Of a DNA stretch of 64,000 bases, positions 10,320-22,953 are shown piece after piece. Position 1 is the first letter of the stretch. Each line of letters starts with the position of its first letter. A program made the translations under genes and the position numbers. This DNA is from Salinispora oceanensis. GTDB taxonomy: Bacteria > Actinomycetota > Actinomycetes > Mycobacteriales > Micromonosporaceae. The stretch is from NCBI RefSeq assembly GCF_000383575.1, contig NZ_KB911579.1, positions 1,729,875-1,793,874 on the forward strand, in the 5' to 3' direction. Under the pieces are notes generated by a model that saw only the letters and a list, made by a program, of their open reading frames with translations, was not told the origin of the DNA and made no database searches.

Positions 10320-10348
10320 TTGTCGCAGACAGTGGGTGGCCGTACGCT
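10320..10348 (+). promoter_or_regulatory. Housekeeping-type promoter for the secretion-like operon
   Basis: TTGTCG at 10320-10325 and TACGCT at 10343-10348 are separated by exactly 17 bp, a good match to the actinomycete vegetative consensus (TTGACN-17-TANNNT). Transcription would begin near 10355, leaving a leader of about 185 nt before the first gene at 10538. Found by inspection only. Confidence 0.6.
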
Positions 10349-10378
10349 TTGGAATTGCCGAGCATCGAGATGGCGAAG

Positions 10379-10459
10379 CCTGGAGGGAGGGCCGAAGCGG
10401 GAAAATCCGCCCAGGACCCACCCGCTCGTGGTGGGTGACGACCGCGGCGGCCTAGCCGC
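10379..10459 (+). promoter_or_regulatory. Structured 5' leader with three adjacent hairpins
   Basis: Three perfect stem-loops lie back to back in the leader. The first has an outer stem CCTGG (10379-10383)/CCAGG (10411-10415) enclosing GCGG (10397-10400)/CCGC (10407-10410). The second is ACCCACC (10416-10422)/GGTGGGT (10430-10436). The third is GCGGC (10444-10448)/GCCGC (10455-10459). The arrangement suggests a cis-regulatory RNA or attenuator, but it fits no riboswitch class I could match with confidence. The surrounding intergenic region (10199-10537, 339 bp) also has to hold the leftward folP promoter, which I could not identify. Confidence 0.45.
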
Positions 10460-10537
10460 AACGTGAGCACCGTTCCCGCCAGGCATGCCTACTGCACCGC
10501 CGCGGCGCCGCCGGCCGCGAAATGGGGAGGTTTTCCA

Positions 10538-10849
10538 GTGATCGCCATCGAGCTGACGGAGGCGGCATCGTCCGCCGCCCACGCTCTCACCGCCCTGAGC
10601 TCGACACCGCTCGCCGAGCCGGCGCCCACCGGCATCGACACCGAAGGCGTCGTCGGCTTCTTCGCCAGCAAGATCGCCCCGATCCTGTTGGCCGTCCTGG
10701 GCGTCATCTTCATCGGGCGGGCGAGCCGGGGCGAGATCTCCAAGGTGCTGACGAGCTCGGCCATCGCGATCGTCGGCCTGGCCTTCATCGCCGGGGCCGC
10801 CACCCTCTTCTTCGTCGGTGACTACCTGATCGACCTGATCTTCGAATAG
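10538..10849 (+). CDS. Small two-helix membrane protein, VirB2/TrbC pilin-like
   Basis: A 103-residue protein. The GTG at 10538 is supported by a GGGGAGG ribosome binding site ending 8 nt upstream. An amphipathic N-terminal ~40 residues precede two hydrophobic helices (about 45-60 and 72-92), separated by a short positively charged loop (GRASRGEISK). Size and topology match VirB2/TrbC-type pilin subunits of type IV secretion systems, but small membrane proteins carry little family signal, so this is inferred mainly from its place ahead of VirB3-, VirB4- and VirB6-like genes. It is the first gene after the promoter and structured leader. Confidence 0.65.
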   Translation: MIAIELTEAASSAAHALTALSSTPLAEPAPTGIDTEGVVGFFASKIAPILLAVLGVIFIGRASRGEISKVLTSSAIAIVGLAFIAGAATLFFVGDYLIDLIFE

Positions 10850-10863
10850 GCGCGGGCACGAGC

Positions 10864-11226
10864 ATGCGGCTGCGCACCGACGACGACATCTACCGGGCTC
10901 GCCTGGTCTACCTCGGGCCCCCCGGCTACACCCTCCCGGTCCACCTCCCGTACGCCCAGTACGGGCTCTTCATGCTGCTCGTTCCCCTCTACATGTTCGT
11001 CCACTGGTTGTTCACGCTGCAGGTCGAGCTCTTCCCGGCGTGGGAGATCGCCCTCGCGATCGTGACCACCTCGTTCGTCTTCCGGTACGTCGACCCGGAC
11101 CGGCCCGCGCGGATGGTGATCCACACCGCGCTGACCGACTGGCGACGCACCCGGGAGCCGGCCGCCGAGCAACGTGACCCCCGCCTGGTCGGCAGCCGGA
11201 TCAGGATCCGAGAGGAACTGGCATGA
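10864..11226 (+). CDS. VirB3/PrgI-like small membrane protein
   Basis: A 120-residue protein with two adjacent membrane helices (about 32-50 and 56-74) and a basic cytoplasmic C-terminus. Length, topology and position directly before a VirB4 ATPase match VirB3/PrgI-family subunits, which anchor the VirB4 ATPase at the inner membrane. The gene starts 14 bp after the preceding stop and ends 34 bp before the ATPase start, so co-transcription is likely. Family membership is inferred from architecture and context rather than motifs. Confidence 0.62.
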   Translation: MRLRTDDDIYRARLVYLGPPGYTLPVHLPYAQYGLFMLLVPLYMFVHWLFTLQVELFPAWEIALAIVTTSFVFRYVDPDRPARMVIHTALTDWRRTREPAAEQRDPRLVGSRIRIREELA

Positions 11227-11260
11227 CCGGGCAGTGCAACGACGCGGGTGAGGCGGTCGC

Positions 11261-14200
11261 ATGAGTTCCCACTACGCGCCGGGATCTCCGGCCGGGCAGT
11301 CGGCCGCGACCCAAGGTGACGCAGCGCAGTCTGTTGGCTACGCTGCGGAGCTCGAGGAGGCCCACCACGACCCGACCCGGGCCACCTCCCCGGGCCACGG
11401 CGGAGTCGGCGTCTTCCAGGCCCCTCGCCCACTGCAGCAGCGGACGCCCACGGATCCGTCGCCGACCGCCGGCACCGACATCGACTCCCCCTTCCTCGAC
11501 CTGTTCGGCGCGACCCGCCCAGCGCGATCCACCCCGAGCCGGGTAGCGACGCGCGAACAGCAGCCGACCATCCCCCAGCAGCTCGGCGCCGGAGATCCGC
11601 CCGCCGCATCGACCGCTCCCGCTGCACCACCCGCTCCCGCCGCACCGGCCGAGGTGGAGCGGTCGCCCGCCGGGTCGCCCCGGCGCTCCACCCGGGTACC
11701 ACACCAAATCGGCGAACGGCTCGCCCCGACAGAGACCGGGGCAGCGCCGCTGCCGGCAGAGACCGGGGCGGCGACCCCACCGGTAGAGACCGGGGCGGCC
11801 GACCCGCCGCCGGCCGACACCACGCCGCGGCGCCACCCCGGCGAACGGTCCGATCCAGACAGCCGAGACGCGCCTCCGTCCAACCGGCGCTCCACCGGCC
11901 GTCGGGACCGCACCACCAAACCGGCACGAGTCCGGCCACCAAAGATCAAATTCAAGGACCGGGACCCGTCGGTGGAGCTGGCCATCACCGAGATCGCCGG
12001 CCACCTGACCTTCACCCCCAACACGGTCACCGCCTGGTACTGGCTACCCGAGGTGCGCTGGGCCTTCCGCCCCGACGCCGAGCGGGAGGCACTGCTCGCG
12101 GCGATCTCCGAGCAGTACGCCGGGCTGGCCGGATTCCGCCTGCACCTGCGACGCACCACCCGCCCCTTCCCGGCCGACGAGTGGGCCCGCACCATCGACA
12201 CCCACACCCGGGCACCGCTCCCCGACGTCCCGGGGACACCGAGCTGGGCAGATCACCTGGTCGCCGCGCAGCGGCACCTGCACTCGGTCAACCACGCCGA
12301 GGGACAGACGTACCTGGGGGTGACCTTCGCCCGGCGCTCGTTGGGCGACTCGCTGGTGGAGCGGGTACGACGCAGCTTCGGTCGCGGCGTCGCCGAAGGC
12401 GAACGACGCAAACTCGGCCGCACCGTCGAGCAGTTCGACGAGGTGCTGGGCGCCTTCGGTATGCGCGGACGCCGGGTCACCACACCGGAGCTGGAGTGGC
12501 TTCTCTACCGCTCGGTGGCGCTCTGCATGGCCCCGCCCGGGCGGCTCTCTCCGGTCACCGACGGGCACTGGGAACGCGGCGACCTGCTCGCCCTGACCGA
12601 ACAGGTGGAGCGCTACCGCACCCCGTACGGGTCCACGGTCAAGCTGGTCAACCGGATGACCGGGGAGGAAGGGCACGTCGCCGTCCTCGCCGTGGGTCGG
12701 ATGGAACCGCTGGAGATCCCCGAACGACACGAGCCCTGGCTGCACTTCCACGAGCGCCTGCCCTGGCCGATGGAGCTGTCCAGCCGGGTCGACATCCTCG
12801 GCTCCGGCGACTCCTTCCGGAACCTGGAGCACCGGCTGCGGATGATCCGCTCCCAGCAGCTCGACTACGCCGAACACGGCATCGACGCCCCACCCGAGTT
12901 GGAGCGCCTCGCAGAGCGAGCCCTCGTCATCGGCGACGAGATGACCACCGGGCTGCCGGTTGAATCCGCCCGCGCGCACGGCTGGCACCGGCTCGCCGTC
13001 GGCGGGCGGACCCGAGAGGAGTGCCTGGAACGCGCCCGACGGCTGATCCAGCTCTACTCCCGAGAGCTACGGGTCTCGCTCCAGCACCCGAAGAACCAGG
13101 ACTGGCTGGCCCGCGAGTTCATCCCCGGAGAGCCGATCGCCAACACCGGCTACGTCCGCCGGATGCCGGTCAACCTCTTCGCCGCCGCGCTCCCGCAGGC
13201 CGCCTCCACCGTCGGCGACCGCCGGGGCGACCTGATCGGACGTACCGCCGGCACCTGCCGCCGGCCAGTCTTCCTCGACCTGCACTTCCCGATGGAGGTC
13301 CGGGAACGCTCGGGGCTCGGGGTCTTCGTGGCCGAGCCCGGCGGCGGCAAGTCCACCCTGCTCGGCGCCCTCGGCTACCTCGCCGCCCGCCGCGGCGTAC
13401 AGGTGACGCTGCTCGACCCCTCCGGCCCGCTCGCCCGGCTCTGCGCCATGCCGGAGCTGGCCCCGTACGCACGGGTGCTGAACCTGACCGGCTCCGAGCC
13501 CGGCACCCTCGCCCCGTACTCGCTGATCCCCACGCCGCTGCGCAGTGAGTTCAGCACCGGTGACGCGGGCGATCGGGAGTTCGAGATCGCGGTCTCCAAC
13601 GCCCGGGCCGAGCGCCGGATGCTGGTCCAGGACATCTGCATGATGCTGGTGCCGCCACAGGTCGCGCGGGAGGCCTCCACTGCCACGCTCTTCCGGCACG
13701 CCGTACGCCAGGTGCCGGCGGAGGAGACCGCCACGCTGGACGATGTGGTCGCCACCCTGGGCAAGCTCGACGACGACGCCGGCCGGGAGCTGGCCAACCT
13801 CCTGCTGGACACCGCCGAGATGCCGCTGGCCATGCTCTTCTTCGGTCGCCCCCCGGCGGGGCTACTCGGGCCGGATGCCACCCTCACCGTCATCACGATG
13901 GCCGGCCTCCGCCTCCCCGACCTCAAGATCGAGCGAGAGTACTGGTCGGCGGAGGAGGCGCTCGCCCTGCCCATGCTGCACACCGCGCACCGGCTCGCCG
14001 TCCGCCGCTGCTACGGCGGCTCGATGTCCTCGCGCAAGCTGGTCGGGCTGGATGAGGCGCACTTCATGGAGGGTTGGCGTTCGGGACGGTCGTTCCTGGT
14101 CCGGCTGGCCCGGGACTCCCGCAAGTGGAACCTGGCCGCGTTGGTCGCCTCGCAGAACCCGAAGGACATCCTCGGCCTCGACGTACAGAACCTGGTCTCC

Positions 14201-14503
14201 ACGGTCTTCGTCGGGCGAATCGCCGAGGACGAGGAGATCGCCTCCGAAGCGCTGCGCCTGCTGCGGGTCCCGGTCAACGACGGGTACGAGGCCACCCTCG
14301 CCTCCCTCTCCGCCGCCGACAGCTCCTCGGCCGCCCGCCTCGGCTACCGCGAGTTCGTCATGCGCGACGTGGACGGGCGGGTGCAGAAGGTCCGGGTCGA
14401 CGTCTCGTACGTCGATGGGTTGCTCGACCACCTCGACACCACACCGGCGGCGATCGCCGCCGCGGCTGGAGTGCTACCCGTCGTAGCGGATCTGGAGGCG
14501 TGA
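11261..14503 (+). CDS. VirB4/TraC-like secretion ATPase with long disordered N-terminus
   Basis: A 1080-residue ATPase of the VirB4/TraC type that should power a type IV secretion-like machine. The first ~220 residues are low-complexity Pro/Ala/Thr/Arg sequence with short ETGAA-type repeats, unusual for VirB4. A VirB4-like N-terminal domain follows (about 230-660), then the RecA-like motor. Walker A is AEPGGGKST with Lys697; Walker B is KLVGLDEAH with Asp931-Glu932; further conserved stretches are LDPSGPLARL and ASQNPKDIL. The catalytic motifs are intact, so activity is expected. The stop is separated by one base from the next start. The C-terminal third is clearly an ATPase; assignment as VirB4 rather than VirD4 rests on overall architecture and the VirB3-like gene before it. 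Confidence 0.82.
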   Translation: MSSHYAPGSPAGQSAATQGDAAQSVGYAAELEEAHHDPTRATSPGHGGVGVFQAPRPLQQRTPTDPSPTAGTDIDSPFLDLFGATRPARSTPSRVATREQQPTIPQQLGAGDPPAASTAPAAPPAPAAPAEVERSPAGSPRRSTRVPHQIGERLAPTETGAAPLPAETGAATPPVETGAADPPPADTTPRRHPGERSDPDSRDAPPSNRRSTGRRDRTTKPARVRPPKIKFKDRDPSVELAITEIAGHLTFTPNTVTAWYWLPEVRWAFRPDAEREALLAAISEQYAGLAGFRLHLRRTTRPFPADEWARTIDTHTRAPLPDVPGTPSWADHLVAAQRHLHSVNHAEGQTYLGVTFARRSLGDSLVERVRRSFGRGVAEGERRKLGRTVEQFDEVLGAFGMRGRRVTTPELEWLLYRSVALCMAPPGRLSPVTDGHWERGDLLALTEQVERYRTPYGSTVKLVNRMTGEEGHVAVLAVGRMEPLEIPERHEPWLHFHERLPWPMELSSRVDILGSGDSFRNLEHRLRMIRSQQLDYAEHGIDAPPELERLAERALVIGDEMTTGLPVESARAHGWHRLAVGGRTREECLERARRLIQLYSRELRVSLQHPKNQDWLAREFIPGEPIANTGYVRRMPVNLFAAALPQAASTVGDRRGDLIGRTAGTCRRPVFLDLHFPMEVRERSGLGVFVAEPGGGKSTLLGALGYLAARRGVQVTLLDPSGPLARLCAMPELAPYARVLNLTGSEPGTLAPYSLIPTPLRSEFSTGDAGDREFEIAVSNARAERRMLVQDICMMLVPPQVAREASTATLFRHAVRQVPAEETATLDDVVATLGKLDDDAGRELANLLLDTAEMPLAMLFFGRPPAGLLGPDATLTVITMAGLRLPDLKIEREYWSAEEALALPMLHTAHRLAVRRCYGGSMSSRKLVGLDEAHFMEGWRSGRSFLVRLARDSRKWNLAALVASQNPKDILGLDVQNLVSTVFVGRIAEDEEIASEALRLLRVPVNDGYEATLASLSAADSSSAARLGYREFVMRDVDGRVQKVRVDVSYVDGLLDHLDTTPAAIAAAAGVLPVVADLEA

Positions 14504-14504
14504 G

Positions 14505-16430
14505 ATGGCCGGGGCCCGGGCTCGGACGGTGGCGCTCCTGCTGGCTCTCGGCGTCCTCGCCGGGGCCACGGTCAGCTGGCCGGGGGTCGGCGCGGCGGCG
14601 GCACCGGGCCCGGAGCTATCCACCCAGGCCCCAGCCGGCCCCTGCACCACCGAGGAGTGGCAGGCCGGCTTCCGCGCCTGTGTCGCCCGGCTCGCGGAGG
14701 TCGCCGAGGACGACGTCACCTGCCGCAACGCCCCGACGCCGACGGCGCCGGACTCCGGCCTCGCCGGCTGGTTCGCGGCTCGTCCGGAGGCCGCGAAGGA
14801 GCCCGGCCCGAAGGGGTTCTACAGCGACTACGGCTACGCGGGATACAGCTACTCCACCTACGACATCGACACCGGCTGCGCCACCGCGGTGCTGCACCCG
14901 GACTACAAGTTCACCAACACGGTCGCCAACGGCGAGTTCATGATCGCCACCGCGATCATCGGCGCCTCGAACGCCCTGCGGGAGCGGGCCTGGGACCCGC
15001 GGTCGATGTGGGGCTGGGCCGATCCGTTGGTGGAGCAGGCCACCACGGCGGTCTACCAGAAGGTGTTCAGCGTCTTCGGGATCGTCACCCTCTGCGTGGT
15101 CGGGCTCTACCTGCTCTGGCGGTCCCGCCAGTCGGACATGAGTAACGCCATGACGACCGCGGGCTGGGCCCTGCTCGTGATGGTGGCGGTGACCGCGCTG
15201 GCCGCCTGGCCGGTGAAGTCCGCCAACGTCGCCGACGGCACCCTGGTCACCACGCTGGGGGTGGTGCACGACGCGGTCGGACCGGCCACCCGGGACGCAC
15301 CACCGGGCCAGTGCGTGCTTCCAAATCCGGAGGCCTGCATCGACAAGCGGCCACCGGCGGTGCGGGCGAGCGACACGGCCACCGAGACGATGCTCTACCG
15401 CAACTGGCTGCGCGGGGTGCTGGGCTCGGCCGACAGCGAGACCGCGAAGAAGTACGGACCGGCGCTCTACGACGCGAAGTCCTTCTCCTGGCAGGAGGTG
15501 GAGAAGCTCCGAGAGTTCCCCGCCACCCGAGAGGCCACCGTCCGGGCCAAGCAACAGCAGTGGGCGCGGGTCGCGCAGCAGATCAAGCAGGAGGATCCGG
15601 AGGCGTACGAGTACCTGCAGGGGCTCCGGGACATGGACCGGGTCGGTGCCGGCTTCATCGCGGTGCTCGCCGCGCTGCTCTTCGCGATGTTCGATCTCAC
15701 CGCGTCGGTGCTGGTACTGCTGGGCTTCCTGCTCTTCCGCTGGGCGGTGATCGCCGCGCCGATCCTCGGCACCGTCGGCCTGCTCCGCCCGGCCAGCGCC
15801 GGGCTGCGCCGGCTGGGTAACGCGGTGGTCGCGGCGGTCTTCAACATCGCCATCTTCGGCACCGGCGCCGCGATCTACCTCTTCGCCGTGGACCTCATCA
15901 TGAGCACCCCGACCCTGCCCGGCTGGCTCCAGGTGGTGCTGGTCTGGCTCTGCGGCGTGGTCGGCTGGCTGCTGCTGCGCCCCTACCGACGGGTCACCCA
16001 GCTCGGCGGCAAGGGCGGGAGTGCGCCGGGCGGCCCAGCCAGCTCCTGGCACCGCCGGTTCTTCCGGGACATGCGCGCCGCGTCCCGCCTCGACGCGGAG
16101 CCCCGCGGTGCCGGCGAGCCGAGCTCGGGTCGCCGCGGGGCGGTGGTGGCGGAGCAGAGCAGGCTGCGGCCGGAGGCCCGGCACGAGGAGCTGGTGCCCG
16201 CGACCGCGGCCCGGTCGGAGCACCGCGAGCGGCCGGACGGGGCGTCGGCGTCCGGGGAGTCGCGTTCCCCGGACCGCACCACCCCCGCCCCGCGGCAGCG
16301 GCGGGCGCCGGCGAGCTGGACCGAGCCGGAGGGCCCGCAGGAGAGCCCCTCCTTTGTCATCTACCGACCCGGTGCGACGAAGCCCGCGCCGGAACGGAGC
16401 ACCCCCCGGATCCGCTCCGAGGCCCGGTGA
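14505..16430 (+). CDS. VirB6/TrbL-like polytopic membrane protein
   Basis: A 641-residue protein with an N-terminal signal-like segment (residues 8-30), an exported Cys-containing region, two membrane helices (about 185-205 and 215-235), a second extracytoplasmic region of ~140 residues, then a cluster of hydrophobic helices (about 382-500) and a long disordered, charged C-terminal tail. This resembles TrbL/VirB6 channel proteins. It starts one base after the VirB4-like stop and its stop overlaps the next GTG by 4 bp. No catalytic motif is visible. The tail (about 505-641) is rich in Arg, Glu, Pro and Ser and probably cytoplasmic. Confidence 0.68.
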   Translation: MAGARARTVALLLALGVLAGATVSWPGVGAAAAPGPELSTQAPAGPCTTEEWQAGFRACVARLAEVAEDDVTCRNAPTPTAPDSGLAGWFAARPEAAKEPGPKGFYSDYGYAGYSYSTYDIDTGCATAVLHPDYKFTNTVANGEFMIATAIIGASNALRERAWDPRSMWGWADPLVEQATTAVYQKVFSVFGIVTLCVVGLYLLWRSRQSDMSNAMTTAGWALLVMVAVTALAAWPVKSANVADGTLVTTLGVVHDAVGPATRDAPPGQCVLPNPEACIDKRPPAVRASDTATETMLYRNWLRGVLGSADSETAKKYGPALYDAKSFSWQEVEKLREFPATREATVRAKQQQWARVAQQIKQEDPEAYEYLQGLRDMDRVGAGFIAVLAALLFAMFDLTASVLVLLGFLLFRWAVIAAPILGTVGLLRPASAGLRRLGNAVVAAVFNIAIFGTGAAIYLFAVDLIMSTPTLPGWLQVVLVWLCGVVGWLLLRPYRRVTQLGGKGGSAPGGPASSWHRRFFRDMRAASRLDAEPRGAGEPSSGRRGAVVAEQSRLRPEARHEELVPATAARSEHRERPDGASASGESRSPDRTTPAPRQRRAPASWTEPEGPQESPSFVIYRPGATKPAPERSTPRIRSEAR

Positions 16431-16981
16431 TCGCGGTGCGGCGGGCAATCGAAGAGCTCCTCACCCGGGTGTTCCGGTCTCGGGTGGGGATCGCCCTGGC
16501 GCTCGCCGTGGTGGTGGTGGGCATCATCGGCACCACCCGGCTGGTCGTCGGGGCGGGGGAGCCGGGGAGCGGCCTCAGCAACCGCCCGGAGCAGCCGATC
16601 ACCACGGTGCACCCGACGGTCGGCGACGACGGGCTGATCGACGAGCGCGCCCCCACGCCGGTGACCGCGCCCGGTGCGGCGACGCCCGAGCAGGTCGCCG
16701 ACGAGTTCGTCACCGCCTGGAAAGGGCGCCCGGGAATGACCGCCGCGGCCTGGCACGCCGGGCTGCGTCCCCTGGCCACTCCGGCGTTGGCCGAGCAGCT
16801 CGCCGAGGTGGATCCGGTCGAGGTCCCGACCGGTGAGGTGGCAGGCACCGTGACGGTCACGGCCCGGTCGGAGCGGGTGGTCGAGGCGCGGGTGCCCTTC
16901 GACACCGGCCGGCTCCGGCTGGAGCTGGTGGCGCCGGACGGCCGGTGGCGGGTGGACGCGGTGGACTGGGAGCAGGCATGA
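16427..16981 (+). CDS. Single-pass protein with NTF2-like domain, VirB8/TcpC-like
   Basis: A 184-residue protein with a short cytoplasmic N-terminus, one membrane helix (about 20-40), a linker and an extracytoplasmic domain (about 85-184) beginning ATPEQVADEFVTAW. That pattern resembles NTF2-like folds of VirB8/TcpC scaffold proteins. The GTG start overlaps the upstream stop by 4 bp, and the stop overlaps the next ATG by 4 bp (16978-16981). A role as a periplasm-side assembly factor for the secretion-like apparatus is inferred from fold type and position. Confidence 0.6.
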   Translation: MIAVRRAIEELLTRVFRSRVGIALALAVVVVGIIGTTRLVVGAGEPGSGLSNRPEQPITTVHPTVGDDGLIDERAPTPVTAPGAATPEQVADEFVTAWKGRPGMTAAAWHAGLRPLATPALAEQLAEVDPVEVPTGEVAGTVTVTARSERVVEARVPFDTGRLRLELVAPDGRWRVDAVDWEQA

Positions 16982-18141
16982 GCGACGCAGTCGAGCCGAA
17001 GCACGGTCGCCTGCGCCTCGGCGTGCTGGCCTTCGCACTCACCGCGACGCTGACCCTGCTCTGCTGCGCCGGCGGCGCGGCCGCCTTCTTCCTCACCGAA
17101 CTCGGCGGCGACGACGAGCTCCGGCTCACCAACCAGGAGTGCACCGACGACTTCCGGGTCGAGGTCGCCGGGGCGATGCCGCAGATGTCGCAGTACGGTG
17201 AGCTCCAGCTCCGCAACGCCGCCCGGATCATCCAGGTCGGGCAGGAGCTGCAGGTGCCGCCCCGCGGGTGGGTGATCGCCGTGGCGACCGCCATGCAGGA
17301 GTCCCGGCTGCGCAATCTCGCCAACCCCACGGTCCCCGGGTCGGAGCAGCTCCCCAACGAGGGCGTCGGCTCGGACCACGACTCGGTGGGGCTGTTCCAG
17401 CAGCGGGCGGGCTGGGGCTCGGTCCAGGAGCGGATGACGCCGGAGTACGCGGCCCGCAAGTTCTACGAGAAGCTGGTGGAGGTCCCCGGTTGGCAGCAGC
17501 TGCCGCTGACCCGGGCCGCGCAGGCCGTGCAGGTCAGCGCCTTCCCGGACGCCTACGCGAAGCATGAGGCGCTGGCGTCGAAGATCGTCAACTCGCTGGC
17601 GGGTGGCGCGGCCCGGACCGTGCCGGTCGACGGCGGGCACGCCTGCGACGCCGCGGAGGATGGCCGGATCGCCGCCTCCGGCTGGACCGCTCCGATCCCC
17701 GGTGACGTCGGCTCCGGCTTCCGTACCCAGGAACGGCCGGCGCACCAGGGGGTGGACATCGCCGCCGACAAGGGCACCCCGATCCAGGCCGCCGCCAGCG
17801 GGCGGGTCCTGGTCGCCCGCTGCGACCCGGACCGGGCCGGGGAGCTGAGCTGCGACGTGGACGGCTGGCCGGGCAAGGGCGGCTGTGGCTGGTTCGTCGA
17901 CATCGCCCACGCCGGGAAGATCATTACCCGCTACTGTCACCTGGCGGAGAAACCCAAGGTCAGCGCGGGCGATTCGGTGCGCGCCGGGGAGGAGATCGGG
18001 GTGATCGGCAGCAGCGGCAACTCCTCCGGCCCGCACCTGCACTTCGAGGTGCACACCGATGGTGACCGAAGCAGCGACGGCGCGATCGACCCGGTGCGCT
18101 TCATGCGGGAGCAGGGCGCGCCGCTGCGGAGCGTGGAGTGA
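16978..18141 (+). CDS. Membrane-anchored M23 peptidase with lytic-transglycosylase-like domain (VirB1-like role)
   Basis: Wall hydrolase of about 387 residues. An N-terminal membrane helix (about 15-40) is followed by a lysozyme-like domain with the AMQESRLRN stretch (candidate catalytic Glu108) and DSVGLFQQR. The C-terminal LytM/M23 domain has its zinc motif HxxxD (His256, Asp260) and HLH (His353, His355) intact. It should open the peptidoglycan layer, the job of VirB1-type enzymes in secretion systems. The ATG at 16978 overlaps the previous stop; the alternative upstream in-frame ATG lies inside the preceding gene. Confidence 0.85.
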   Translation: MSDAVEPKHGRLRLGVLAFALTATLTLLCCAGGAAAFFLTELGGDDELRLTNQECTDDFRVEVAGAMPQMSQYGELQLRNAARIIQVGQELQVPPRGWVIAVATAMQESRLRNLANPTVPGSEQLPNEGVGSDHDSVGLFQQRAGWGSVQERMTPEYAARKFYEKLVEVPGWQQLPLTRAAQAVQVSAFPDAYAKHEALASKIVNSLAGGAARTVPVDGGHACDAAEDGRIAASGWTAPIPGDVGSGFRTQERPAHQGVDIAADKGTPIQAAASGRVLVARCDPDRAGELSCDVDGWPGKGGCGWFVDIAHAGKIITRYCHLAEKPKVSAGDSVRAGEEIGVIGSSGNSSGPHLHFEVHTDGDRSSDGAIDPVRFMREQGAPLRSVE

Positions 18142-18154
18142 GGCACCGACGGCG

Positions 18155-18748
18155 ATGACAGACCCCCTCCCCGACCCCTTCCTGGACCAGCCGGACTGGA
18201 CGCCGCTGCCGCCCCGACCGATCGCGGTGCTGCCGGCCTCCGGCCGGGTCGAGCTGCGCGGGCGTCGGGTGCGGGTCGGCCAGCCCGGGCTGGGCTGGCG
18301 CGGCGACCTCCGCGCGGACGACCGCGTGGTCCAGGGCGCCCGCACCTACGTGCCGGTCATCGCCGAGCACGAGTGGTACCGCGCCGAGGCCGATCAGGTC
18401 GAGGTCTTCGCCCCTCTCGTCCCGGTCGACCGGGTCTGGGTGGAGACAGTCGGGCAGCGGCCGGAGCTGCCGCCCGCGGAGGCCGACCGGCTGGTCTCCC
18501 TGGACGCGCCGACGCACCGGGCGCCGACGCCGGTCTTCGAGGCCGACGCCGTCGCCGGCCGGCGGGTCGTGCACGTGGAGGGCGCGGCCGAACACCGGGA
18601 CCTACGCGCGGTCACCGAGACCTACTCGAGCGCCGAGGGGGACATCTGCGTCCGGGTTACCCCCGAGGTGGAGTGGTATCGGTGGGCCTGGCGCGGGCAG
18701 ACCCCGACCACGCTCGAGGTCCCCGTCCACCTGCTCTGGATCGAATAG
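18155..18748 (+). CDS. Conserved hypothetical protein of the secretion-like cluster
   Basis: A 197-residue soluble protein rich in Pro, Val and acidic residues, without signal peptide or membrane segment. Two similar HEWYRAEADQ / EVEWYRWAWR motifs and alternating hydrophobic pattern suggest a beta-rich fold with an internal duplication. No known domain was recognised. It begins 13 bp after the peptidase gene, so it is probably the last gene of that operon. It ends 2 bp from the convergent gene at 18751. Confidence 0.65.
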   Translation: MTDPLPDPFLDQPDWTPLPPRPIAVLPASGRVELRGRRVRVGQPGLGWRGDLRADDRVVQGARTYVPVIAEHEWYRAEADQVEVFAPLVPVDRVWVETVGQRPELPPAEADRLVSLDAPTHRAPTPVFEADAVAGRRVVHVEGAAEHRDLRAVTETYSSAEGDICVRVTPEVEWYRWAWRGQTPTTLEVPVHLLWIE

Positions 18749-18750
18749 GG

Positions 18751-19335
18751 TCAGTCCATCCGCGCGCCGGCGCAGACCCGCCAGTCCTCGCCCAGCCGGG
18801 TGGTGAAGCGCCACGGCTGCTGGTCACTCTGGAAAACACCGTCAACGTGAGCGGAGATCACCAGTTCCAGCTCGACGACCGCCTCGTCGCCCTCGCGCCC
18901 AATCACGAGATTTCCCCAGCTGACGGAGATCGGCACCGCGAACCGCGCCTCCCGCGCGACCAGGTCCTCGCGCAACGCCCCCAGCTCGGCGAGGGACGCT
19001 CCCTCGGCGCAGACGAACAGATCGGCGAGTGTGTCATTCCGATCCACGAGGAACGCGCGAAGGTAGTTGTCCACGACTACCTCCGGGGCGCTGCGGTCGG
19101 GGGTGGTGGCCCGGTCGTAGAGGACGTAGCCGCCGACGATCCCGCCCAGCACGAGCGCCGTCAGCACGGCGGCGGTCACGGTGAGGACGGTGCGAAGTCG
19201 TTGCCGCCGCGGCGGGACCGGCGTCCCCGCTCCTGGTGCGGGCGCCGCTGGTGGGGCCGCCAGCTGCTCCGAGGGAGGCCGCTGCGCCGGTAGGCGGGAC
19301 ACCTGGGAACCGGCGGGGGGCTGCACTGATTCCAC
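18751..19335 (-). CDS. Single-pass membrane protein with NTF2-like extracytoplasmic domain
   Basis: A 194-residue protein with a Pro-rich cytoplasmic N-terminus, one strong membrane helix (about 48-72) and an exported domain (about 80-194) starting APEVVVDNYLRAF and ending in an EDWRVCAGARMD segment. Layout parallels the VirB8/TcpC-like protein encoded at 16427 but on the opposite strand. It is the only leftward gene within the cluster. Function unknown; a structural partner of the apparatus is one possibility. Confidence 0.65.
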   Translation of the reverse strand: MESVQPPAGSQVSRLPAQRPPSEQLAAPPAAPAPGAGTPVPPRRQRLRTVLTVTAAVLTALVLGGIVGGYVLYDRATTPDRSAPEVVVDNYLRAFLVDRNDTLADLFVCAEGASLAELGALREDLVAREARFAVPISVSWGNLVIGREGDEAVVELELVISAHVDGVFQSDQQPWRFTTRLGEDWRVCAGARMD

Positions 19336-19528
19336 CCCCTGAGGCTAGCGGCTGCCGGCCGCTGGCCCAATGCCCAGATTAGGCAGATCGTGACGGCTTC
19401 CTCCCCGCTGGTGACATCGGCAACAACACCGAAGCAGCACCGCGGCGCCTCCGTCGGAACCGGCTCGTCCTGCGCTACGGTCTTCGCGCGGGGTGGGTCG
19501 CCGACCTCGCGAAAAGGGGGTGGACGCG

Positions 19529-22060
19529 GTGGGTCCGAGGAGGCGGGCAAACCGGGCCGCCGCCCTACACCGGCAGGCTGCCGCCACCGCGCTCGCCGCC
19601 GCCGACGTTCTCGACGACATCCGCCCCGCTCCCGCCGACCACGCCCGCCAGTACGAGCTCGCCGACCGGCTGCGGAGCGCCGCCAGTCAACTCGCCCCCG
19701 GCTGGGCGGGAGCCGCGCTGGAGACCCTGCCGGCGGAGACCCTCGCCGGGGAGGGGTCGCCGCGCTTCGTCCGGGTCGGCACCGCCGCCCCGCTCGACGA
19801 GGCACGCTTCCCCGCGCTGGTCCCGCTGATCGGCGCCGGGAACCTGACGATCGACGCCGACACCGGGGATCCGCGGGTGGCCGGCCTGGTCCGGGCCGTC
19901 CTGTTCCGACTGCTGGCGGCCACGCCGGCCGGGGCGCTGCTGGTACGCGCCGTTGACGGTACGGGTACCGCGCTGGCCCCGTTCGCGGCGCTCGCCGACG
20001 CCGGCCTCCTGCCGCCTCCGGTTACGGACGTCGCCGGCCTGCGGGCGGTGCTGGCGGAGGCGGAGCGGTGGGTGGCCCCGGCCGGAGACGACCGACGCCG
20101 GCACGACCGAATCCTGCTCCTGGTCGTCGCCGCGCTGCCCGAGTCCACCGGCCCTACCGACCTGGCCCGCCTGGAAGCGCTCGCCGAGCAGGGCAGCGCG
20201 AGTGGCCTGCACCTGCTGGTGGCGGGGTGGCCGGCGGGCCTCGCTCCGCTGCCACGCGCCGCCGCGCTGGCGGTCCGCAGTGCGTACGCGCTACTCACTG
20301 GCCCGCCCGGCACGGTCTTCGGGGCTCCGGAAGCAGACCCACCAGGCGGGTTGAACTCGCCGGTCTTCCTCGAGCCGGACCCCCCGGCAGGCCTCGTGGA
20401 CAAGGTCTGCCGTCGCCTCGCCGAGCAGGTGGAGGAGGGTTCCCGGCTGGCCCTGGCCGAGCTGCTTCCGGAGCCGAGCGAGCCGGTGTGGACGACGAGT
20501 TCCCGGGCCGGGATGGCGACGACGGTAGGGGACGCCGGGGGGCGACCGGTCTCCCTGGGCTTCTCCGAGCTGACGCCGCACTGGTTGGTGAGCGGCCGCT
20601 CCGACACCAGTCGATCGACGTTCCTCGCCACCGCCCTGCTCGGTCTGACCGCCCGCTACGGTCCCGAGGAGCTCGTCCTCTACCTGGCCGACCTCGGCGC
20701 CGGGGAGTCCTTCACCGAGTTCCTCCAGACCGAACGCGACCGCTCCTGGATTCCACAGGTCCGGGCCGCCGCCATCACCGCCGACCGGGAATACGTGCTG
20801 GATCTCTTCGACCTCCTGGCCACCGAGGTCCGCCGCCGCGAGGAGGCCGGTGCGCGAGCCGGCGGGCAGCGCTACCAGGAGCTGCGGCAACACCGGGAGC
20901 TGCCCCGGATCGTCGCCGTGGTGGACGGCCTACCGCGGCTACTCACCGGCCGGGACCGGATCGCCACCAAGGCCCGGGCCCTGCTCGAGGCCGTGGCGCG
21001 CACCGGCCGGTCGTACGGCGTGCATCTGCTCCTGGCCGGGGAGGGAGACCTGGGCCTTCGGGCGCGCGGTGAGCGGGATCCACTGCTCGGGCAGTTCCCG
21101 GTACGGGTGGCGCTTCCCGGCGGGGGCGCGGTGCTGGCCTCGACCAACGACTCGGCGGCTGGGCTGGCGGTGGGGAGTGCGGCGGTCAACACCGCGGGCG
21201 GCCTCGGGGGGCCGCGGGGCGCCATCCGGGGACACGAACGGGTGGTCCGCTTCCCCGATCCGCTGGATCACTGTGCGGTGGTGGAGGGCCTGCGGCACCG
21301 GCTCTGGGCGGCCCGCCCGGAGCGAAGCGCCCCACCAGTCGTCTTCGCCGGTTATGCCCAGCCGCAGCTCCGCAACGATCCCCGCTACCGAGCGGCGGTG
21401 GCCGGTGGGGCGACCGGGCCGGTGGCGTTGCTGGGCCGGGCGGTGGATGTGACCCGGTCCACGGTGACGGTGTCGCTCGACGCCGCCCCGGGGCGCAATC
21501 TGGCGGTACTCGGTGGCAGTGTGGCGGCAGCTGGCCTGCTGGTCACCGCGGCCCGCAGCGTCGCCGCCCACCACCAGCCGGGTTCCGCCCGGTTCGTGGT
21601 GGTGCCTTCCGCGGACGAGGCGGGGCCGCTCGCCGCGGCACTCGCCGCCGAGTTGGCCACCCAGCACTCGGTCGAGGTGGTGGATCAGGCTGACCTGCCG
21701 GCCGCCCTCGACTCGGCCGAGCCGGCCTACCTGGTCGTCTTCGACCTGGGCGGGCCGGGCTCCGGGCCGGTTCCGCCGGAGCGACTCGCCACCCTGCTCC
21801 GGGAGGGGCCACCGGCCGGTCGTCACCTGCTCGGCCGGTGGGGCACCGTACCCTCATTCGCGTCCCTACTCGAGCCAGGAGACGAGTTGACCAAACTCGC
21901 CACGGTCGCCGTCGTGGACGTGCCGGGGGCCCAGCTCGGGGCGCTCTTCGGCCGGCCGGTGGAGTGGCGTCCTCGACCAGACCGCGCGCTGCTCTGGGAC
22001 GGCCACAGCGAGCAGGGCGTCGTCCTGGTTCCGTTCGCCACGAAGCCGGTCCTGACGTGA
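19529..22060 (+). CDS. FtsK/SpoIIIE-like protein with degenerate nucleotide-binding motifs
   Basis: An 843-residue soluble protein with two regions that align by pattern with FtsK/SpoIIIE-HerA motor domains. In the first, the Walker A position reads GRSDTSRST, with Arg362 in place of the essential Lys, and the Walker B region reads IVAVVDGLP, with Gly467 in place of the catalytic Glu. In the second, the P-loop is replaced by LAVLGGSVAAAGLL and Walker B by LVVFDLGG. Both sites therefore look inactive, as in the non-catalytic domains of EccC or coupling proteins. The GTG at 19529 is chosen because AAGGGGG ends 8 nt upstream. It overlaps the next gene by 4 bp. A scaffold or substrate-docking role is speculation. 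Confidence 0.75.
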   Translation: MGPRRRANRAAALHRQAAATALAAADVLDDIRPAPADHARQYELADRLRSAASQLAPGWAGAALETLPAETLAGEGSPRFVRVGTAAPLDEARFPALVPLIGAGNLTIDADTGDPRVAGLVRAVLFRLLAATPAGALLVRAVDGTGTALAPFAALADAGLLPPPVTDVAGLRAVLAEAERWVAPAGDDRRRHDRILLLVVAALPESTGPTDLARLEALAEQGSASGLHLLVAGWPAGLAPLPRAAALAVRSAYALLTGPPGTVFGAPEADPPGGLNSPVFLEPDPPAGLVDKVCRRLAEQVEEGSRLALAELLPEPSEPVWTTSSRAGMATTVGDAGGRPVSLGFSELTPHWLVSGRSDTSRSTFLATALLGLTARYGPEELVLYLADLGAGESFTEFLQTERDRSWIPQVRAAAITADREYVLDLFDLLATEVRRREEAGARAGGQRYQELRQHRELPRIVAVVDGLPRLLTGRDRIATKARALLEAVARTGRSYGVHLLLAGEGDLGLRARGERDPLLGQFPVRVALPGGGAVLASTNDSAAGLAVGSAAVNTAGGLGGPRGAIRGHERVVRFPDPLDHCAVVEGLRHRLWAARPERSAPPVVFAGYAQPQLRNDPRYRAAVAGGATGPVALLGRAVDVTRSTVTVSLDAAPGRNLAVLGGSVAAAGLLVTAARSVAAHHQPGSARFVVVPSADEAGPLAAALAAELATQHSVEVVDQADLPAALDSAEPAYLVVFDLGGPGSGPVPPERLATLLREGPPAGRHLLGRWGTVPSFASLLEPGDELTKLATVAVVDVPGAQLGALFGRPVEWRPRPDRALLWDGHSEQGVVLVPFATKPVLT

Positions 22061-22953
22061 GCCGGATACCCATCCAGGATCGGGGCCCGGATCGGCAGCA
22101 ACCGCCGACCGCCCCGCCGCCGCCGATCCACGTACCGCAGCCGGTCCATCCGCCGGCGGCGGCCCACCAGCCGCTGCCCGACCACGAGCCGGAGCCGGAG
22201 CCGGCCCACAACGAGGAGCCGACCCACCAGCCGGAGCCCACCCACGACGGGAAGGCCCAGGAAGAGGCGGCGGCACACGACGAGGCGGCGGCCCAGGACG
22301 AGGCGGCGGCACACGAGCCGGTCGAGGTGGCGTGGGCCGAATACCTCGCGGCGACCCGGCAGCTCGACGAGGTACGCCGAAGTGCAGCCACCGTCGCGGG
22401 CGAGCAGGCTCGCGCGGTCGCGGCCGCCCGGGAGGAGTTGGCGACAGTCCGGGCCCAGCTGGCCGGGCAGGAGGCGCGGCTGCGCGAGTCCGGCGTACCG
22501 CCGATCTCGCTGGCACCGACGCCACCGGAGCTCTCGGCGGCGAGCCGGTCGATGGCGAGTGGGCCGGCGACGGTGCTGGCCGCGCTGCGGGAGGCGGCCG
22601 GCCGGGTGGAGTCGGCGGACGCCGCCCTGGCCGCCCGCGGGCTGGTCAACCTGGCCGGCTGGCCCGTCATCGCCCGTAACCTGCTCTGCTACGCCCCGCT
22701 GGCTCTGCTGATGCCGTTGGTCCAGCTGATCCTGCTCGTCGTCACCGGCCCCAGCACGGTGAGCGCCGCCGCGCTGGTCGTCGGGCTGGCGACGCCGGCG
22801 GGGGCGTTCGCGGTGGGCTGGTGGTGCGTGGGGCGCCTCGCCGGGCCGGACGCGGCCGGGCAACCGGACCGCACTCCCCGGCTCGGGGCGTTGGTCTGCC
22901 TCGTCCCGGCGGTTCTGGCCAGTGCGGTGCTCCTGCTCGCCCTGCTGGGCTGA
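22057..22953 (+). CDS. Hypothetical membrane protein with acidic repeat linker
   Basis: A 298-residue protein. The GTG at 22057 overlaps the FtsK-like stop by 4 bp, so the two are translationally coupled. The first ~90 residues are Pro/Gln/Glu/His-rich and include DEAAAHDEAAAQDEAAAH-type repeats. A coiled-coil region follows (about 90-150), a helical segment (about 165-205), then four hydrophobic helices toward the C-terminus. No domain recognised; partnership with the FtsK-like protein is inferred from coupling. Confidence 0.65.
   Translation: MSRIPIQDRGPDRQQPPTAPPPPIHVPQPVHPPAAAHQPLPDHEPEPEPAHNEEPTHQPEPTHDGKAQEEAAAHDEAAAQDEAAAHEPVEVAWAEYLAATRQLDEVRRSAATVAGEQARAVAAAREELATVRAQLAGQEARLRESGVPPISLAPTPPELSAASRSMASGPATVLAALREAAGRVESADAALAARGLVNLAGWPVIARNLLCYAPLALLMPLVQLILLVVTGPSTVSAAALVVGLATPAGAFAVGWWCVGRLAGPDAAGQPDRTPRLGALVCLVPAVLASAVLLLALLG

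Follow-up and report, generated by a model that had tools for sequence, protein, structure and literature searches.

A conserved chromosomal cluster of conjugation-type secretion genes in the Micromonosporaceae

According to a 2025 review, nearly all known functions of type IV secretion systems (T4SSs) in Gram-positive bacteria are limited to DNA translocation, and whether such systems serve as dedicated effector translocators is a long-standing question (PMC12857230; this and the other papers are cited from excerpts). The system described here is a cluster of six VirB-type genes on the chromosome of Salinispora oceanensis, within a stretch of 64,000 nucleotides (assembly GCF_000383575.1, contig NZ_KB911579.1, positions 1,729,875 to 1,793,874) that is referred to as the window. 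A sequence-only reading of the window had proposed that it is the core of a conjugation machine, possibly domesticated and undescribed. Based on the comparisons below, the cluster is probably a domesticated, relaxase-less conjugation-type T4SS that was fixed in the chromosome of the family ancestor and is used by the cell.

Blocks with the same order, VirB2-VirB3-VirB4-VirB6-VirB8-hydrolase, are found on actinomycete plasmids of Streptomyces, Nonomuraea, Pseudonocardia, Rhodococcus and Prescottella (pVAPN type). Unlike these blocks, the window locus has a fixed place in the chromosome. Among seven plasmid loci with wide flanks, an FtsK or type IV coupling protein gene lies nearby in six and ParA in five, while one locus (L004) has neither. 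The plasmid hydrolases are of the NlpC/P60 type in five cases and contain M23 in two, whereas that of the window combines a muramidase domain with M23. pVAPN has been termed conjugative (PMC5434932). Seven of nine plasmid records fetched from PLSDB are typed non-mobilizable, and transfer by those plasmids is therefore not proven.

Among the systems of the MPF-FATA/FA classes (names from PMC12857230 and PMC3158045), pIP501, pCF10 and Tcp share with the window a VirB4/TcpF-like ATPase, a VirB8 of the NTF2 fold, to which TraM of pIP501 is closest, and an anchored hydrolase. They differ from the window locus, with which no relaxase or intact coupling protein was found. Functions beyond self-transfer have been proposed for the Gram-positive T4SSs of Streptococcus suis 89K and of Patescibacteria; both are described with VirD4, and neither comes from actinomycetes (PMC12857230).

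A closer precedent in kind is cmdABCDEF of Streptomyces (SCO4126-4131), a chromosomal, genus-conserved cluster that encodes a VirB4-like ATPase and membrane proteins, as the window cluster does, and in which three genes resemble transfer genes of plasmid SLP2 (PMC2782261). In strains deleted for cmd genes, sporulation is late and impaired and chromosomes segregate abnormally (PMC2782261), and a transposon screen links cmdBCDEF to actinorhodin output (PMC6585502). The excerpts of the cmd paper mention no wall hydrolase (PMC2782261), in contrast to the window cluster, which has one. In addition, Frankia genomes hold one conserved VirB4-like gene (PMC2266912), and a virB4 gene, not necessarily that of this cluster, has been noted in Micromonospora lupini (PMC4182475). 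Apart from the latter, no description of the cluster was found among the literature matches listed. The suggestion that the system is undescribed may thus hold for the cluster itself, but chromosomal VirB4 clusters of actinomycetes are not entirely new, one of them having a published mutant phenotype.

Six VirB-type genes between folate genes

The cluster lies in a genome of 5.45 Mb in two contigs, with folP-folB-folK-DUF3180 on one flank and folE-ftsH-hpt-tilS on the other; the VirB operon stands between them in opposed orientation (folB was assigned by position and similarity). In Mycobacterium tuberculosis, folE, folP, folB and folK are adjacent, on which basis an old arrangement of genes would be broken up by the VirB cluster. 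The operon runs from the VirB2-like gene through the wall hydrolase to a gene for a 197-residue protein, and is followed by a convergent Rv0361-like gene and by a pair encoding an FtsK/EccC-like and a hydrophobic protein (Table 1). All six genes of the tight order proposed earlier are in place on the forward strand.

Table 1. Features of the locus, in window coordinates (TM, transmembrane segment; aa, amino acids)
Feature	Position	Strand	Basis or remark
Promoter-like element TTGTCG-N17-TACGCT	10320..10348	+	Inferred, housekeeping-sigma type, upstream of operon
VirB-type block	10538-18141	+	Six genes, tightly packed
VirB2-like pilin candidate, 103 aa	10538..10849	+	GTG start; position and topology
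VirB3-like membrane protein, 120 aa	10864..11226	+	tblastn to plasmid loci
VirB4 ATPase, 1080 aa	11261..14503	+	Pfam AAA_10, NCBIfam TcpF, Walker motifs
VirB6/TrbL-like channel protein, 641 aa	14505..16430	+	tblastn to plasmid loci; about seven hydrophobic segments
VirB8-like protein, 184 aa	16427..16981	+	One TM and NTF2-like outer domain (predicted)
Wall hydrolase, muramidase domain and M23 endopeptidase	16945..18141	+	Pfam M23; PDB 8b2e
Conserved 197-aa protein, no known family	18155..18748	+	Predicted tandem SH3/Tudor-like barrels
Single-TM Rv0361-like membrane protein	18751..19335	-	Convergent; NF051431 9.8e-5, below cut-off
FtsK/EccC-like accessory protein	19493..22060	+	FtsK_SpoIIIE 1.7e-10; EccCa 2.7e-15 (below cut-off)
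Fast-evolving protein, hydrophobic C-terminus	21838..22953	+	Adjoins FtsK-like gene; median dN/dS 0.50

The proteins were compared by tblastn with five plasmid loci (Nonomuraea, Streptomyces, Pseudonocardia, Rhodococcus) and with a set of related chromosomal loci, the best 80 of 261 confirmed relatives from a genome-contig scan with VirB4 and hence a selected set. All 80 are from Micromonosporaceae, with VirB4 identities of 89-99% across up to 835 residues; the window VirB4 shares 99% identity with its counterparts in Salinispora cortesiana and S. pacifica. VirB4 matches Pfam AAA_10 above the cut-off (4e-23) and NCBIfam TcpF at 1.2e-17, the latter scoring 63 bits where the cut-off is 1100. The Walker motifs that had been called intact (GKS in Walker A, DE in Walker B) are conserved in all 81 aligned rows, and VirB4 matches all five plasmid loci at 32-37% identity. 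The homologues of VirB3, with matches in four of the five plasmid loci (best 1.6e-8), and of VirB6, with matches in all five (7e-51 to 2.8e-22), adjoin VirB4 in the same order as their plasmid counterparts. VirB3 has a median identity of 94% and is 120 residues long in 66/66 loci where it was detected. Among the window proteins Pfam gave no VirB3, VirB6 or VirB8 match, and PDB sequence searches with VirB4, VirB6, VirB8 and the 197-residue protein returned nothing convincing.

The hydrolase carries an M23 domain (1.2e-25), and the domain at its N-terminus (residues 86-215), which had been described as similar to a lytic transglycosylase, is a muramidase domain (PDB 8b2e, 3.1e-25), so that the earlier description was close. 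The catalytic residues H..D and HLH are present in 80/80 rows and the glutamate of the muramidase domain in 79/80; a single hydrophobic segment (25-43) is the presumed membrane anchor, and all five plasmid loci match.

The 184-residue protein has a counterpart by tblastn in two of the five plasmid loci and, by hhalign (6e-13), on a further plasmid. In its AlphaFold2 model the predicted local distance difference test score (pLDDT) is mostly above 90 across residues 81-180. With VIA-align the best match of this model is TraM of pIP501 (4ec6; Z 11.2, root-mean-square deviation 2.7, 96 residues aligned), and Brucella VirB8 also aligns (Z 10.0, deviation 3.2, 94 residues). On re-alignment, uncharacterised NTF2-like folds scored about 1.3 Z or less below the top match, and Foldseek gave no match below 1e-3, though the VirB8 protein PrgL was first in its ranking. 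The model suggests a VirB8-like protein with a predicted NTF2 fold closest to that of TraM.

The VirB2-like protein has two hydrophobic helices (residues 41-59 and 75-93) and is a closed open reading frame (ORF) in 66/66 loci where it was detected. It matched none of the five plasmid loci by tblastn, a profile comparison with one plasmid protein gave no link, and a weak 38% match (E 1.9e-4) was obtained to locus L120 of another family. Its assignment as VirB2 is inferred from position and topology. Overall, the matches of VirB3, VirB4, VirB6 and the hydrolase to plasmid counterparts, together with the predicted NTF2 fold of VirB8, bear out the proposed Gram-positive conjugation core, and a relation to transfer families was found for the small proteins as well, the VirB2-like protein being the weakest case.

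Conservation, inheritance and constraint

Of 250 family genomes, 245 gave a Pfam match to the VirB4 domain PF12846 (243 over the cut-off), and 42 of 44 genera are represented; among good genomes the count is 232/234. The five genomes without a match are drafts of 360-1080 contigs that are 69-94% complete. In the S. oceanensis genome itself, the window VirB4 is the sole match over the cut-off. Because VirB4, VirB6, VirB8 and the hydrolase are each present in 80/80 kept loci, chance can be excluded for the block. VirB2 and VirB3 are present in 66 of the 80. Twelve misses are contig ends, and two (L061 and L068), where no VirB2, VirB3 or folP was found upstream, are unexplained, with assembly breaks suspected. 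The position is also fixed: in 66/66 loci with a folP match, the genes between folK and the Rv0361-like gene, these two included, keep the order and strands of the window, as judged by match midpoints and with loci lacking such a match left out. On the other side, folE was not found in eight of 71 loci with more than 9.7 kb downstream.

The orthologous cluster was likewise present in two of two further family regions and in 18 of 20 more, two of which had been picked for odd-looking scores. Sixteen of these 18 regions adjoin fol genes; all six core genes are present in 17, and one is cut by a contig end. Locus L154, from genus g147, has the six core genes with no accessory or fol genes within its stretch, which suggests a minimal module.

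The history of the cluster appears to be that of the chromosome around it. Genetic distances of ten locus genes correlate with those of folB and folK (Mantel r 0.71-0.88, with 0/499 permutations as high; r is 0.75 for folE, for comparison). In a quick VirB4 tree, which gave long-branch warnings and did not include L131, L132 and L138, the family together with g147 forms one clade (Shimodaira-Hasegawa-like approximate likelihood ratio test 100) that is sister to the VirB4 of plasmids and of family f3 and distant from the types of f19, f22 and f2. Median ratios of nonsynonymous to synonymous change (dN/dS), from a simple pairwise count with non-independent pairs, are 0.09 for VirB3, 0.18 for VirB4, 0.20 for VirB6 and 0.25 for VirB2, compared with 0.15 for folE, 0.26 for folB and 0.29 for folK. 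By these sequence comparisons, the constraint on VirB3 and VirB4 seems about as strong as that on the folate enzymes.

These results bear directly on whether the locus is the decaying remnant of an integrative conjugative element. Such an origin would account for the homology to transfer modules and for the lack of relaxase and integrase in the ORFs scanned. A remnant would not, however, be expected in 245/250 genomes at a site fixed in 66/66 loci with folP, under purifying selection and with no internal stops in the core genes other than in one hydrolase match, and this explanation is highly improbable. An ordinary integrative conjugative element was rejected on presence, fixed site and constraint. 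In one locus (L077), the VirB6 and hydrolase ORFs are short. The domestication proposed earlier is, in contrast, strongly supported by the near-universal presence, the synteny, the single clade and the purifying selection.

Other conserved VirB4 clusters were seen in the class. In a sample of 394 genomes, 40 genomes of family f19 (a count without a denominator for that family) have VirB4-domain matches of about 221-242 bits. Seven f19 loci (L120-L126) have their own conserved set of clustered chromosomal genes, for a two-TM protein, a TcpE-domain ORF, VirB4, VirB6/TrbL and NlpC/P60. With L122 as reference, VirB4 (at 78-90%) and the 110-aa two-TM protein recur in 6/6 other loci, and the TcpE-domain ORF, a 230-aa one-TM protein and the NlpC/P60 protein each in 5/6. 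Conserved VirB4 clusters are also carried by f22 and by the Streptomyces-like g27. The ATPase of the g27 locus L131 is 475 residues long and carries the Walker lysine at residue 90, in agreement with the published CmdB, but residue 404 differs from the published second lysine; L131 is probably the cmd locus and this ATPase CmdB. Finally, L138 (genome G415, genus g159) contains a divergent VirB4-type cluster with 31% identity and no other PF12846 match, and it is possible that this cluster replaced the orthologous one.

Neighbouring genes and DNA processing

The absence of DNA-processing genes noted earlier was confirmed within the range of the Pfam scan, which took in 40 of the 242 window ORFs of at least 100 aa, with the final 8 kb and many ORFs outside it. 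No relaxase, integrase, VirD4 or intact coupling ATPase was found among these 40; the rest of the genome was searched for neither relaxase nor coupling ATPase. The coupling-type candidate in the window is the FtsK/EccC-like protein alone, in which the P-loop is degenerate, with GRSDTSRST at the position of Walker A. Of 77 aligned rows, 65 have R in the column of the Walker lysine, 10 have K, one has V and one a gap, and all ten rows from Plantactinospora, Phytohabitans, Asanoa and Actinoplanes retain GK[ST]. The alignment thus suggests that the Micromonospora-Salinispora line lost the P-loop and that other genera kept it. The gene is present in 68 of 71 loci with room for it and in 13 of 18 further loci. 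It was not found in L028, L035 and L050, or in L139, L150, L152, L153 and L154, of which L150 and L153 extend just a few kb beyond. With the lysine lost in 66/77 rows and the gene not found in several loci, a function as essential coupling protein is unsupported. At the usual place of the gene, L028, L035 and L050, from three Micromonospora species, have a different ORF of 1259-1430 aa.

Because no relaxase is encoded with the cluster and the P-loop lysine is lost in this lineage, the cluster should not transfer its own DNA. It could instead act in trans as a mating channel, carrying chromosomal DNA or aiding resident plasmids and integrative elements between hyphae, with the neighbouring gene or another locus providing a relaxase or a translocase of the FtsK/TraB type. 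In five plasmid loci the homologous block has an FtsK/SpoIIIE gene close by, and the FtsK-like gene of the family adjoins the cluster, with an intact GK[ST] in the ten rows of four genera other than Micromonospora. However, arginine replaces the Walker lysine in most rows, the eight loci named above lack a detectable gene, and the protein is closer to EccC models, with no specific similarity to the FtsK of the Nonomuraea plasmid. In Streptomyces, deletion of the whole cmd cluster left transfer of an SLP2-derived plasmid unchanged (data not shown in the paper, PMC2782261), although that is a different cluster. On balance a mating channel is an unlikely but serious alternative.

Of the other neighbours, the 197-residue protein is strongly conserved in 80/80 loci and was not found in L148 and L154. 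Judging from the alignment, its ORF probably starts near 18155 and not at 18059. Its model has a pLDDT of 86.9, and the fold matches are weak (Tudor/SH3-like, best Z 5.5). The Rv0361-like gene is present in 80/80 loci and was not found in L154.

Upstream of the operon, the pattern TTGNNN-17-TACNNT of the promoter-like element occurs in 67/67 aligned regions, which are related and not independent sequences, always with a spacer of 17; 0.8% of mononucleotide shuffles match it. A stricter sigma-70 scan did not report the element. Between it and VirB2 lies a partly conserved untranslated leader (10349-10537). A riboswitch in the leader was rejected for want of a credible Rfam match, as was a conserved structure, since consensus folding gave -2.8 against -1.05 for shuffled columns (standard deviation 1.10, lowest -4.3). 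Two further identities for the locus were also rejected: as a defence system, where PADLOC matched generic ATPases only (mad8, SspH), and as a phage derivative, where the PHROGs matches were to the wall hydrolase, with single VirB4 and generic FtsK matches.

Proposed role of the cluster

The near-universal presence of the cluster in the family argues for a job done for the cell rather than for a plasmid, and use by the cell is what we infer. Several observations weigh against a conjugation machine that was domesticated once and kept throughout the family. A PF12846 match is not always the orthologue: the odd-score pair among the 20 regions holds other VirB4 types, the single match of G415 belongs to another type, and the best matches of G450 and G476 are weak (E about 3e-4). 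VirB8 (dN/dS 0.37) and the hydrolase (0.35) are under looser constraint than the fol genes. No window query matched the probable cmd loci L131 and L132 at 1e-3, so that the analogy with cmd is one of kind only. The search for relaxase and coupling ATPase covered just the scanned ORFs of the window, and in the four genera with an intact P-loop the FtsK-like protein may still be a DNA motor. Those ten rows make domestication slightly less probable, and the mating channel slightly more so.

The cluster might alternatively serve, in the manner of the S. suis 89K T4SS, as a dedicated exporter of effectors aimed at other cells or at hosts. Most T4SSs of Proteobacteria that lack a relaxase belong to clades that include known protein exporters (PMC3158045), and one Gram-positive case has been described (PMC12857230). 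Yet none of the genes in the conserved block was recognisable as toxin-like or variable cargo, and presence in nearly the whole family argues for a general role. This explanation seems quite unlikely.

Under the favoured reading, a conjugation-type T4SS would have been taken over by the chromosome in the ancestor of the Micromonosporaceae and kept as a cell machine. By analogy with its homologues, VirB4 would power assembly or transport through an inner-membrane channel of VirB3 and VirB6, with VirB8 as scaffold; the muramidase/M23 protein would open the wall, and the VirB2-like protein would line a channel or form a short pilus. The likeliest task, if cmd is a guide, would be to move a protein, or to build a channel in the envelope, while the mycelium grows or differentiates. 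Taken alone, such a role in the envelope or in differentiation is a tentative proposal.

It is also quite possible, though short of probable, that actinomycete families have repeatedly and separately fixed conjugation machines as core envelope machines, in the Micromonosporaceae, in f19, in f22 and as cmd in Streptomyces, for mycelial development or for cell-cell exchange without self-transfer. With a relaxase-less T4SS present in almost every genome of an antibiotic-producing family, the question of T4SSs that do not serve transfer can be tested. Given the cmd precedent, the cluster may connect the machinery of conjugation with development and the making of antibiotics.

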